Source: Alphaproteobacteria bacterium US3C007
Lineage (GTDB): Bacteria > Pseudomonadota > Alphaproteobacteria > Rhodobacterales > Rhodobacteraceae
Assembly: GCA_034423775.1 (NCBI GenBank)
Contig: CP139918.1
Location: forward strand, 3,534,001-3,598,000
Reading direction: 5' to 3'
DNA: 64,000 nucleotides
The notes beneath the pieces are model-generated. The model did not search any database and had not been told where the DNA came from. It saw only the letters and a list, made by a program, of their open reading frames with translations. Of this stretch, positions 4,175 through 38,191 are shown piece after piece. Position numbers and translations under genes: made by a program. Position 1 is the first letter of the stretch; every line of letters begins with the position of its first letter.

Positions 4175-6004
4175 TTAATATCCACAATGGGTTTGCAGCA
4201 CGAAATGATCGCGCGTGATTTCTGTGTAAACTGAGGGTTCAGGGATGTAGTCTAAGGCATGAATAGGCGAGGGAATCGCCTTGAATTGCAAATCACGATC
4301 CAGTTGTTTTTTAGCAGGATCTGCGATCGGAACCGCTTTCATCAAGGCTTTCGTGTAAGGGTGTTGCGGGGTTTCAAATACTTTTTGGCGCGGTCCGATT
4401 TCAACAATGCGCCCCAAATACATCACCGCCACATCATGGCTTACCCGTTCAACAACCGCCATATCATGGCTAATGAATAGAAACGAAAGGCCCAGATTAG
4501 CCTGCAGCCCCATCATCAGGTTTAAAACCTGCGCTTGCACAGACACATCCAGCGCACTGACGGCTTCATCCGCCACAATCAGCTGTGGATTCAACGCTAA
4601 GGCGCGGGCAATCGCCACGCGTTGACGTTGCCCCCCGGATAGCTCATGCGGATACCGTCCTAAAAAGCTGCGGGGCAATTCAACCTGATCGAACAGCTCG
4701 GACACCCGGTTTTGAAGCGCAGCCCCTTTATGCGTGCCAAAACTGCGCAAAGGCTCTGCAACCTGCGCCATCAGCGTCATTTGCGGATTGAGCGAGGCAA
4801 AGGGATCCTGAAACACCATTTGCATTTTGGCGCGCGCGCGGCGCAAATCGGCAGCGCTCATATCGCCTAAAATCTCACCATCAATCTCAACTTCCCCGGA
4901 ATGCGGCTCAACCAAGCGCAACAAAGAACGCCCAACGGTTGATTTGCCGCACCCTGATTCGCCTACCAAAGATAAGGTACGACCCTTTTGAAGCGTGAAT
5001 GAAACATCTTCTACGGCGTGAACCCTCGCCACCGTGCGGCGAAAAAATCCACCCGACACATCGAACCGCGTCACCAAATTTTTCACTTTTAACAGAGGTG
5101 CATCGCTGCCAATAATTGGCTCCACCGCTTGCGCTTTCGCACCCAAAAGCGGCAGCGGCTGCGGATAAGATGTGCCGCGCATATCGCCCAATCTTGGCAC
5201 CGCTGCAAGCAGCGCTTTGGTATATTCATGCTGGGGCGCTTGAAAAATTTGGTCAACCGGACCTTCTTCCACTTTGCGCCCACGATACATCACCACGACC
5301 CGGTCCGCCATCTGGGCAACCACCGCCATATCATGCGTGATAAACATAACCGCCGCACCGGTTTCCTGCTTCAGTCGATCAATCAGCGATAAAATCTCTG
5401 CTTGAATGGTAACATCCAGCGCCGTTGTCGGTTCATCCGCAATCAACAAGCGGGGCCTGCAGGCAAGCGCCATGGCAATCACCACGCGCTGGCGCATTCC
5501 GCCAGAAAGTTCATGCGGATATTGTTTCAAGCGCCGCTCGGGTTCGGGAATACGCACTTGCTTCATCAACTCGAGCGCGCGCGCGCGGGCAGCCCCCTGC
5601 CCCAACTGAAGATGCAGCTTCAACCCTTCCACCAATTGCCGCTCAATCGTGAACACAGGGTTAAGCGCCGTCATTGGCTCTTGAAAAATCATGCCTATAT
5701 CGTTGCCGCGCACTTTGCGCATTGTGGCAGGCTGAGCGTTCACCACATCGAACTGCCCGCCTTTTTCAGGCCTAAGCCGCAATTGGCCGCCAGCAAGCGC
5801 TCCGCCTCCAAATTCCACCAACCGCATCATAGAGAGCGCGGAAACTGATTTTCCTGAGCCGGATTCTCCAACCACGCAGACGGTTTCGCCTGGATTGATT
5901 TGAAAAGAAAGGTCCTCAACCCCAATAACTTCGCCAGCTTTGGTCTGAAAAGTCACCCTTAAGTTCTGAAACTCAGCAATCGGCTGCACGGCATCATCTA
6001 ACAT
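4175..6004 (-). CDS. Peptide ABC transporter, double ATP-binding protein (DppD-DppF / GsiA type), 609 aa
   Basis: Two complete nucleotide-binding domains in one chain power a dipeptide/oligopeptide/nickel-type importer. The first has Walker [13 protein letters not shown], signature [15 protein letters not shown] and Walker [14 protein letters not shown]; the second has [30 protein letters not shown] and [13 protein letters not shown]. Each is followed by the oligopeptide-transporter C-terminal segment (HPYTKAL type). I chose the ATG at 6004 because AAAGAG precedes it at normal spacing; a GTG at 6043 gives 13 extra, poorly conserved residues. The gene is divergent from the binding-protein and permease genes and heads the operon with two M20 hydrolases. 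The second Walker B has Glu-Ala in place of Glu-Pro, which still leaves the catalytic Glu. Confidence 0.93.
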
Positions 6005-6267
6005 TAAAAACACTCTTTTACGGCTGGTCCACGCTAGCGGCACCCTTTGCCGCTTGTCAAATCAATCATAATAAACCGGTCAAATTTCTAAAAAACATTG
6101 CTTTTCGCGAAAACTATGTTTCCATGCTCATACGAAACCCAATGACCAATACCATTTGGGTCTTTTATTTGAGTAGAGCGAATGCGCGACGCGTAAACGC
6201 CGCTGCGTTTCTATGTGAAGTAAGAGAGGGGAATGTTGCTCCCCACCAACCATTAAGGAATAGTAAA

Positions 6268-35522: not shown

Positions 35523-37460
35523 TTAACCGAGCAATTGCAGCACGTTTTGTTTCGCCGCATTGGCCTGCGCCATCATCGCGATCGAAGCTTGTTCCAAAAT
35601 TCTGCTTGTGGTCATTCTTGACGTTTCCGCTGCAAAATCAGCATCCTGCAAGCGCCCAAGACTCATTTCTGAATTCGCCGCCACATTCGATAGGTTCGAA
35701 ATCGACATATCAAATCGATTGCTTAAGGCACCAAACATAGCCCGGTCTGCACTTACCATCTGCATGGCGAGGTCGATCGAATTAATGGCTTTATGGGAAT
35801 CAGTTGCAGAGGCGACGCTTAAATTGCCGCCCAAAACAATATCAAAAGTACCATCGATATTGTCAGTCAAGTTTAAGCCGGTGATTCCTTCTGCTTGTAG
35901 CTTCGCTACTATTTGCTGTGCGGCGGCAGCAGGAGAGTCATAAGTTACGAGCTTAGCGTTTGTGGAGATGTACAAGCCATTTGCTTTTTCAATTACCGAA
36001 CCTGCTTCAAAATCCGAAGCTGTGCTGAAGACGGCAGTGGCCCCAGAAGCTGTTGCCATTGCAGTTGAAGAACCTACAAATGACTCGCCAGCAGTGAAAG
36101 TGGTTGATCCATAGGTCAAGGAACCCGCTGTAACTAAGTATGACTTTCCGCTTGTTATCGCAACATCTTCACCACTAGTAATATTATTGATACGGCTGTC
36201 GGTAGGCGAAGTTTCATTCGTATTAGAAACTGCAGTAATCTCTACCAGAGCACTAGAACCAGAAGCTGTAACGGTAGTTGTAGAAGCCGCCAAAAATGAC
36301 TGGCCCGCTGTAAATGTATCGCTTCCGTATACAAATGCGCCCTCAGTGACGAGATAGGTTTTGTCCTCTGTAATAGCAGTCGTATCTCCGCTCGCGACTG
36401 AAGTGGAGCCAAGGCTGGCATCGTAAAAAACAGATGAGTCATTGACCACCTTAAATTGCGTACCATCCGCAGCCGCATTAACATCCGCATCGGTTTTGAT
36501 CGCCTTGACGCGGCCCGTGCCTGTTAAAGATGTTGTATTCGATGCAACTGTGATTATCGAGCCAAGGCCATTGGCTCCATCGTTAGAATCCGCGATCGGA
36601 GAGTTAACCGACGCGCTGATACCGGAATTTGAGGTTGTAAAATCAGTCGTACCCATCGACGTGATATAGTATTCACCCGCGCTGAGCGCAGATGAGCCGT
36701 TAACCGCAATCGCGCCCGTATCAATAATATCGGTATCTGTCAGCGTTGTTTGTATCGACTGACCATTAATCGTCATGGTGATTTTATCATCCGCGGCAAA
36801 AGCACCACTTAAAGTTACTTTTCCATCGGTTGGGTTTATCGCAACGGCGCCACTGCCACCTGTAGCATATGTGGTTGCGATTGTTGGCACCGTTCCAGTG
36901 CCCTCAATATCCAAAGCCTCTGAGGTGATCGCATAGAAATTCACCGTGATGTTATCGCCATCATTTGGCGTCGAGCCAATTTGAAAGTTGGTTGTATACG
37001 CCTCGGTATGCGATGTTGCCAATTCATTGGCACCCCGGGCGCCGTTGAAAATGCTTTGCCCTGCCCATTGTGTACTTTGGGCAATCCGGTCGACTTCCAT
37101 CGTCAATTGATCAATTTCCAACTGAATCATATCTCTGTCTGTTGGACTATTGGTGCCATTCGCCGCTTGAATTGCCAATTCGCGCATGCGCTGAAGGATA
37201 TTGGTGATCTCAACCATAGCCCCCTCAGCCGTATTGATCATCGACTGCCCATCCGTGGCGTTACGAATGGCCATACGCATACCTTGAACGTCAGAATTAA
37301 TTCTTGTTGCCACAGCCACGCCAGCCGCATCATCAGAGGCTGAATTGATGCGCAATCCAGAGGTCAGACGCTCCATAGACTGATTGAGCGTAACGGTATT
37401 TCTTTCAGAACTTTTAGACGCCAGTAGAAAAGCTGTATCGGTTGCGATATTTAAGGCCAT
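35523..37460 (-). CDS. Flagellin with a long, repeat-containing variable region, 645 aa
   Basis: Filament subunit of the flagellum. The conserved D0/D1 ends are clear: SMERLTSGLRINSASDDAAG and TDGQSMINTAEGAM at the N-terminus (residues 1-150) and NLSNVAANSEMSLGRLQDAD to NVLQLLG at the C-terminus (about 555-645). The centre (about 160-550) is long for an alphaproteobacterial flagellin and contains two copies of a Gly/Ser/Thr-rich repeat (residues 362-404 and 434-476, 72 residues apart, 26 of 43 identical by eye). A further segment around 258-320 carries YYITSMGTTDFT. The start has AAGGGAG overlapping the stop of the upstream gene. No other flagellar structural gene is in the window. Confidence 0.96.
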   Translation of the reverse strand: MALNIATDTAFLLASKSSERNTVTLNQSMERLTSGLRINSASDDAAGVAVATRINSDVQGMRMAIRNATDGQSMINTAEGAMVEITNILQRMRELAIQAANGTNSPTDRDMIQLEIDQLTMEVDRIAQSTQWAGQSIFNGARGANELATSHTEAYTTNFQIGSTPNDGDNITVNFYAITSEALDIEGTGTVPTIATTYATGGSGAVAINPTDGKVTLSGAFAADDKITMTINGQSIQTTLTDTDIIDTGAIAVNGSSALSAGEYYITSMGTTDFTTSNSGISASVNSPIADSNDGANGLGSIITVASNTTSLTGTGRVKAIKTDADVNAAADGTQFKVVNDSSVFYDASLGSTSVASGDTTAITEDKTYLVTEGAFVYGSDTFTAGQSFLAASTTTVTASGSSALVEITAVSNTNETSPTDSRINNITSGEDVAITSGKSYLVTAGSLTYGSTTFTAGESFVGSSTAMATASGATAVFSTASDFEAGSVIEKANGLYISTNAKLVTYDSPAAAAQQIVAKLQAEGITGLNLTDNIDGTFDIVLGGNLSVASATDSHKAINSIDLAMQMVSADRAMFGALSNRFDMSISNLSNVAANSEMSLGRLQDADFAAETSRMTTSRILEQASIAMMAQANAAKQNVLQLLG

Positions 37461-37471
37461 TTCAAACTCCC

Positions 37472-38137
37472 TTAAGCGACGAGCTTATAGAATGTTTCGT
37501 CGACGCCGTGCTCCGTTGCGAACGGCATCATCAAATGTTCTAAAATCAGCTTCTCTTGCTCGGACATAAGGTCATATACGTTTTGATCAAAATATTTACT
37601 CATGATCTCATTGACCAAAACGACTTCAGATTCAAAAATTGCCTTGCGGTAAACAATCGCCAGAAAAGCTTCAGCAACATAAGTGGAAAAGGTGAAATGC
37701 TTCAATTTCGCGGCTTTCAAGGGGTCTTTACAGCTGCGATCTACGCGATAAAGCGTTTCAATCGCCTCATGCATCCATTCAACAGGATTGACCAATGTAA
37801 CGGCTTCTGTCGGATCTTCCTGAGGCGCAGCCTCAGTTTGAGAAAACGGCACAAGAAGGTTTTGAATGACTTCCTGATCATAATCGCTCAGGGCAGCAAG
37901 CAATTCATCGCTTAAATACTCTGTTACAACTTTATGGACCAGTTCAGCCTGCTCGGTCGTGATTGCTTTTGCAGCCAAAATAGCTTCAAACGCCTCAACG
38001 ACATAATGTGTGAACACAAACTTATTGAAGGTGATAGCTTCTTCCGAAGATTTTGCGCCTGCTTTGATCTTCTCAAGCGTGATCAAAGCCTCTTCCAACC
38101 ACTCTTTGGGGCGTACAATTTCGACGTCTTGCTTCAT
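37472..38137 (-). CDS. Protein of unknown family made of two tandem 94-residue domains, upstream of flagellin, 221 aa
   Basis: I do not recognise the family. Residues 5-98 and 113-206 align without a gap, with 30 of 94 positions identical by eye; shared positions include PxEW near each start, YV-EAF-AI in the centre and L-PF at the end. Both copies look fully helical and acidic, with no signal peptide or membrane segment. The ATG at 38137 follows GAGGAAG; a frame open to 38215 would run across the promoter. The stop overlaps the flagellin ribosome site (11 bp gap). Position and control suggest a role in flagellin expression, export or modification; it does not look like FlaF, FlbT or FliS. 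Function is inference only. Confidence 0.85.
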   Translation of the reverse strand: MKQDVEIVRPKEWLEEALITLEKIKAGAKSSEEAITFNKFVFTHYVVEAFEAILAAKAITTEQAELVHKVVTEYLSDELLAALSDYDQEVIQNLLVPFSQTEAAPQEDPTEAVTLVNPVEWMHEAIETLYRVDRSCKDPLKAAKLKHFTFSTYVAEAFLAIVYRKAIFESEVVLVNEIMSKYFDQNVYDLMSEQEKLILEHLMMPFATEHGVDETFYKLVA

Positions 38138-38175
38138 AATCTTCCTCGCAAATATCTTAGTGCTGGAGGATATAC

Positions 38176-38191
38176 AGCAAATTATATGCCA
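38176..38191 (-). promoter_or_regulatory. Sigma54-type -24/-12 promoter of the flagellin operon
   Basis: On the minus strand the sequence is TGGCATATAATTTGCT, which has the invariant GG and GC with the required 10-base spacing and matches TGGCA-N6-TTGCW in full. The expected transcript starts near 38165, leaving a leader of about 28 bases before the ATG at 38137. RpoN control of flagellins is known in Caulobacter and other alphaproteobacteria. Confidence 0.75.

Follow-up and report, generated by a model that had tools for sequence, protein, structure and literature searches.

To our knowledge, flagellin chaperones have been thought of as a few old and widespread families, FliS and FlaF. FliS binds the C-terminal D0 segment of flagellin, and D0, which is formed by the flagellin ends, is the site both of export-partner binding and of subunit packing in the filament core. 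Export chaperones are small, acidic, helical and cytoplasmic, and their genes adjoin the gene of the substrate. Here we describe a two-domain protein of 221 residues that is encoded directly ahead of a flagellin gene in Alphaproteobacteria bacterium US3C007, within a 64,000-nucleotide (nt) stretch of contig CP139918.1 (positions 3,534,001 to 3,598,000; the window hereafter) of a genome of 3,622,411 bases in one contig. We tentatively favor the reading that its domain is a lineage-specific, non-enzymatic binding module and that the tandem form is the dedicated partner, most likely the export chaperone, of the window flagellin, a prediction to which we would give a little less than an even chance. 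In the accessible text of PMC12075776 the strain is identified as Candidatus Thalassovivens spotae (CHAB-I-5), with full or partial flagella pathways conserved and motility predicted.

Of the closest described proteins, FliS, FlaF and FlbT are all found in the same genome. Of its two flagellar systems, the first comprises FlaF, FlbT and a flagellin of 278 residues; the second has FliS, FlhA and rpoN, along with two sigma-54 activators and longer flagellins (374-669 residues). Like FliS, the protein described here is small, helical and cytoplasmic and belongs to the same (second) flagellar system, but FliS is a separate gene in the host and the two-domain protein is a tandem. FlaF, which the accessible part of PMC7591256 presents as chaperoning flagellin secretion in Caulobacter, is likewise a small protein with its gene near flagellin and establishes that such a kind of protein exists; it sits, however, in the other cluster, beside the small flagellin and FlbT. 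With FlbT a possible flagellin-linked regulatory role is shared, but the true FlbT is encoded elsewhere in the genome. CP1-CP4 of the Rhodobacterales fla1 cluster are also lineage-specific flagellar proteins of unknown function; as far as the accessible text of PMC12363192 goes, they are universal in fla1 clusters of the order and absent from other types, whereas the family described here was found in one genus only and is set apart from CP1-CP4 by description. Type III export chaperones in general are approached in that the two-domain protein is small, acidic, helical in its predicted model and without a span, with its gene beside flagellin, all non-specific traits. In those parts of the open PubMed Central literature that surfaced on flagellin chaperones (Rhodobacterales, tandem-domain proteins, FlaF/FliS in alphaproteobacteria), no such protein was described.

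Sequence comparisons agree with the first-pass annotation of this DNA, which had called the protein undescribed and unlike FliS, FlaF and FlbT. No family match to it was found in Pfam, NCBIfam, PHROGs, PADLOC or the PDB sequences; the best values (0.0042 in NCBIfam, where 16.9 bits compare with a cut-off of 230, and 0.01 in PHROGs) look like chance and were rejected as a known-family reading, and a Pfam search over all eight available domain rows gave 0.016 at best. Neither FliS (PF02561) nor FlaF (PF07309) was hit by hmmscan, and FlbT (PF07378) had no Pfam match. In hhalign the domain profile (A5, effective sequence number 1.9) reached a probability of 0.2% against 13 FliS sequences from the order, a shallow profile that could miss a remote tie, and likewise 0.2% against two near-identical FlaF rows; the shallow domain alignment makes all profile comparisons to FliS, FlaF and FlbT low in sensitivity. 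Foldseek found nothing at E <= 0.001 in the PDB or the viral models for the predicted models, and no FliS was seen among the structure-search rows shown, which excludes nothing. Among the fold families considered (the RmlT helical region, the GST C-terminal domain and MO25), the RmlT helical region came top in VIA-align for both halves and for a one-domain paralogue described below, at values below the tool's trustworthy range for helical bundles.

The gene (37472..38137, minus strand) runs from an ATG at 38137 to a TAA at 37474-37472, and its product is a conserved acidic protein of two homologous helical halves (25.3 kDa; isoelectric point 4.65; 39 D+E vs 20 K+R). Residues 5-98 and 113-206 align gap-free over 94 positions with 30 identities, and the ungapped BLOSUM62 score of half against half is 158, as compared with -68 +/- 20 for 20,000 shuffles (best shuffle 16; z ~11). 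An AlphaFold2 model built on a shallow 7-row alignment consists of two helical domains with a mean predicted confidence (pLDDT) of 74; by ten-residue blocks the values are 75-91 over most of the first domain and 65-88 over most of the second, and residues 99-115 form a low-confidence linker between them. A single-domain model had a mean pLDDT of 71, with core blocks mostly at 86-92. The tandem helical halves read earlier from the letters alone are thus borne out by alignment, shuffles and model. Of the further claim that the protein has neither a signal peptide nor a membrane span, the part on the span stands, since no span is indicated (highest 19-residue Kyte-Doolittle mean 1.42). Codon changes in three pairwise genome comparisons are mostly synonymous (18/19, 44/50 and 38/45 of the changed codons), giving a ratio of nonsynonymous to synonymous change (dN/dS) of ~0.01-0.04, which shows this to be a real gene under selection.

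Eight domain rows, made up of both halves in two genomes and the paralogue in four, have 18 invariant positions in common; no polar or charged residue occurs among them, which argues against an enzyme. The same observation bears on the possibility that the protein is an accessory of flagellin modification, for example the substrate-recognition part for a transferase. Such a protein could well be encoded beside flagellin, yet no Pfam match to a transferase (FlmG-type or other) or to TPR was found, and we regard this explanation as very improbable.

The neighbor is indeed a flagellin, as first annotated (Pfam Flagellin_N 7e-39, Flagellin_C 6e-20). Its 645-residue frame (35523..37460, minus strand), the second gene of a presumed two-gene operon, starts 11 nt past the stop of the first gene. 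At the junction (37461..37474, minus strand) the TAA runs directly into the flagellin ribosome site GGGAG, and the 11-nt gap from stop to flagellin ATG is identical in all three genomes that have the two-domain gene. The first-pass annotation had concluded from this contact that production of the two proteins is coupled; the contact itself stands, and translational coupling is plausible from the arrangement. The two genes would be co-transcribed in the presumed operon. The same arrangement, in which the two-domain gene precedes flagellin and its stop adjoins the flagellin ribosome site, could suit a post-transcriptional regulator that, like FlbT, binds the flagellin message or flagellin and couples synthesis to export. 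Precedent for this comes from Caulobacter, where FlbT acts on flagellin translation according to the accessible parts of PMC3930126 and PMC7591256. However, an acidic protein (pI as above) with no conserved basic residues would be a poor RNA binder, and FlbT itself is not matched in Pfam; we consider a regulator of this sort unlikely, but a serious alternative.

Upstream, a ribosome-binding site (GAGGAA, 38142..38147, minus strand) precedes the start codon and a sigma-54 (-24/-12) type promoter, TGGCATATAATTTGCT, is predicted at 38176..38191 on the same strand, 38 nt upstream of the ATG. The pattern was taken from the sigma-54 -24/-12 consensus. The site is unchanged in the three genomes with the gene, even though the DNA of one of them (G199) differs from ~15 nt farther upstream, so that a putative -24/-12 promoter stands directly upstream and is kept between genomes. 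In its strict form the pattern occurs once in the window and 16 times in the genome, as compared with three times for a reversed control. Six of the strict sites lie <=115 nt before motA, rpoN, fliK, the flagellin at 2020948, a flgB-like rod gene and a flgF/G-like gene, and eight of the 16 shortly precede either flagellar genes or genes of the family formed by the two-domain protein and its paralogue. A strict site is present ahead of every copy of both family members, and the flagellar cluster carries rpoN together with two sigma-54 activators. Given the strict sites before flagellar genes and both members, the family seems to belong to the sigma-54 regulon of the flagellum, and the promoter pattern suggests that the two-domain gene is under sigma-54 control.

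The paralogue is a 140-residue protein with one such domain, encoded at G000:C1:3298593-3298898 (minus strand), whose domain shares 39% identity with the first half of the two-domain protein and 25% with the second. All four genomes of the genus carry it, each time with a strict sigma-54 site ahead of the ATG (at a distance of 45 nt in US3C007) and with the same divergent neighbor, a chemoreceptor gene (MCPsignal 5e-27, HAMP 3e-11); in strain SB2 the receptor match is divided into two overlapping pieces. Homologues therefore do not always precede flagellin genes, and the position of the paralogue tells against a strictly flagellin-bound family, since a domain found beside a chemoreceptor does not serve the window flagellin alone. 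These observations raise the alternative of a general motility/chemotaxis adaptor, the domain of which would bind a shared flagellar or receptor component, the link to flagellin being a matter of co-transcription only. Both the constant receptor neighbor and the sigma-54 site of the paralogue fit such an adaptor. What does not fit is that the tandem form adjoins the same flagellin in each of the three genomes that hold the tandem gene, and on balance we think the adaptor rather unlikely.

In the explanation that we favor, of a flagellin partner, the domain would be a helical module for protein binding that belongs to the flagellar sigma-54 regulon of CHAB-I-5. With one domain it would serve as a motility protein. 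The tandem form, encoded by the first gene of the presumed operon, would act as the dedicated cytoplasmic partner of the divergent flagellin encoded second, most likely keeping hold of the terminal (D0) segments of this flagellin until export, as FliS or FlaF do for other flagellins. The further idea of the first-pass annotation, one domain for each flagellin end, finds neither support nor contradiction in these observations. Our reasoning for this is that an acidic helical protein lacking a conserved polar site, a sigma-54 promoter and a diverged flagellin are most simply explained by a dedicated flagellin partner; binding to flagellin, and a chaperone rather than a regulator role, are what we infer from these features. 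By analogy the likeliest description is that the two-domain protein works like an export chaperone, and not that it is a FliS, FlaF or FlbT.

The flagellin itself supplies a further part of the argument. Five Flagellin_N matches in the host are of the long kind, the window flagellin included (a sixth, weak match is a 566-residue frame that by eye is FlgL-like from its place after a FlgK-like gene). Among 196 genomes of the order, all ten others that match the window flagellin N-terminus (E <= 1e-20) belong to the 19 FliS-positive ones, which indicates that the window flagellin is associated with the FliS system. Its identity to its four paralogues is 57-65% over the N-terminal core of D1 and 62-69% over the final 40 residues, and drops to 19-32% in the ~30 residues before the core, where two of the four paralogues have no ATG and only 21-28 positions can be aligned. 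The other four are 59-95% identical among themselves at the N-terminal end and 85-100% in the last 40 residues. Across the three genomes the ends of the window flagellin are nearly constant, with two changes in the first 35 residues and none in the last 40. In a flagellin tree of 17 rows with weak forks (77/90) the window flagellin stands on a long branch; the motif parser lost four of 21 rows and the tree was used for the long branch only.

Several observations weigh against our proposal. The D0 contrast is not exclusive to the ends, as the other four flagellins also resemble each other more closely in D1 (65-79%), and over the stretch lying 85-40 residues from the end they share 55-89%, vs 39-48% for the window flagellin; the divergence of D0 may also stem from a special position within the filament. 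The host already has FliS, FlaF and FlbT, and known chaperones have neither a sequence match nor a clear fold match to the two-domain protein. The three tandem copies, all from a single genus, are not independent; the paralogue does not lie beside flagellin, so that four of the seven family members in the genus are away from flagellin, and the pattern that had been named beforehand as refuting a flagellin role, homologues mostly away from flagellin genes, is seen in part, the tandem copies being beside flagellin in three of three cases. With regard to the promoter, the remaining eight of the 16 strict sites stand within or ahead of genes whose kind is different or unclear, none recognizably flagellar, and the loose pattern TGGC-N7-TTGC occurs seven times in the window against 7.6 expected, which is not above chance. 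The weight therefore rests on the strictness of the pattern, on where the site stands and on its conservation.

As far as tested, the family appears to be confined to this genus. The tandem gene is present in three of the four genomes, each time with the same flagellin; among close relatives is strain SB2 (LGRT01000010.1), which came from a contig scan able to find close relatives only. The genome without it, a 2.7-Mb draft (G198), showed a single weak match to Flagellin_N; as no long flagellin was seen in it either, the absence of the tandem gene from this draft is no evidence. Genome samples at the level of family (198), order (390), class (385) and phylum (398), together with the 36 nearest genomes, yielded no accepted family member outside the genus (overlapping samples, not additive; one of the searches was run with a single protein query and not with a profile), nor did plasmids, phages and viral contigs give a match. 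Around FliS, which was found in 19 other genomes among 380 of the order, an unfiltered domain-profile search of the regions in all 19 gave no match (best E 0.27). No convincing coupled gene was seen upstream of the long flagellins of relatives in the eight of ten relatives parsed, the other two having been missed by the motif parser.

Three weak or partial matches were set aside. One (G445, E 0.007) lies in a frame that by eye reads as glyoxalase-like (L049), and another (G548, E 0.007) contains an internal stop. The third, 54 residues at 89% identity, occupies the last ~160 bases of a contig from a metagenome-assembled genome (L002, ~6001-6162), the other frames of which look unrelated; this is a gene piece fused to unrelated DNA at a contig end and probably an assembly chimaera.

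A broader scenario, which we put forward as possible though on the doubtful side, is that of a chaperone class born within the genus. A new single-domain sigma-54 motility protein would later have been tandem-duplicated and paired with a duplicated, D0-drifted flagellin, providing private export for one of five such flagellins in a cell with two flagellar systems. If true, such a history would illustrate how flagellins, as they multiply, can acquire a private partner for export or assembly, here in an abundant pelagic Roseobacter lineage. New in the present work are the one-domain paralogue and the strict sigma-54 promoter before every copy of both members.

Other flagellar loci of the genome also drew our attention. 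A 17.4-kb segment with fliS, flhA and further genes is inverted between G000:C1:567723-585140 (L034/L035) and G199:C1:3251555-3268918 (L046/L047); both flanks are colinear, and each border falls within the 5' part of a flagellin gene, the two genes pointing in opposite directions. Of the two copies in either arrangement, one retains the 200-nt upstream region and the ATG, whereas similarity in the other begins only 15-24 nt into the frame, where no ATG is seen. This looks like a flagellin switch that works by inversion, homologous or site-specific, with essential flagellar genes on the invertible piece, and the copies without ATG may use another start codon. Phage-type tyrosine integrases (L034 9877-11052 and 18833-19999, the latter open at the locus end, and L037 6272-7399, all on the plus strand) adjoin the two ATG-less copies and the flagellin at 2020948; judging from their positions, they could be island integrases that use the flagellin 5' end as a site, or part of the switch. 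Between the flagellin copies lies a gene (L034 14629-16227, minus strand) for a TPR and sulfotransferase protein (Sulfotransfer_3 6e-46), possibly a flagellin-modifying enzyme.

In the FlaF/FlbT cluster (L039 5330-6977) a transposase-like frame stands beside a frame whose first part recurs by the same transposase in another locus (L005) and whose remainder by eye resembles the end of a flagellar gene, with no Pfam match; the cluster may thus be interrupted by an insertion element. No FlaF match was found in SB2 or in the 2.7-Mb draft. Finally, a FliK-like protein of 808 residues (L036 8084-10510, minus strand) contains five similar 23-residue tandem repeats beginning DLSKNNT, which could possibly make it a length-varying hook ruler.
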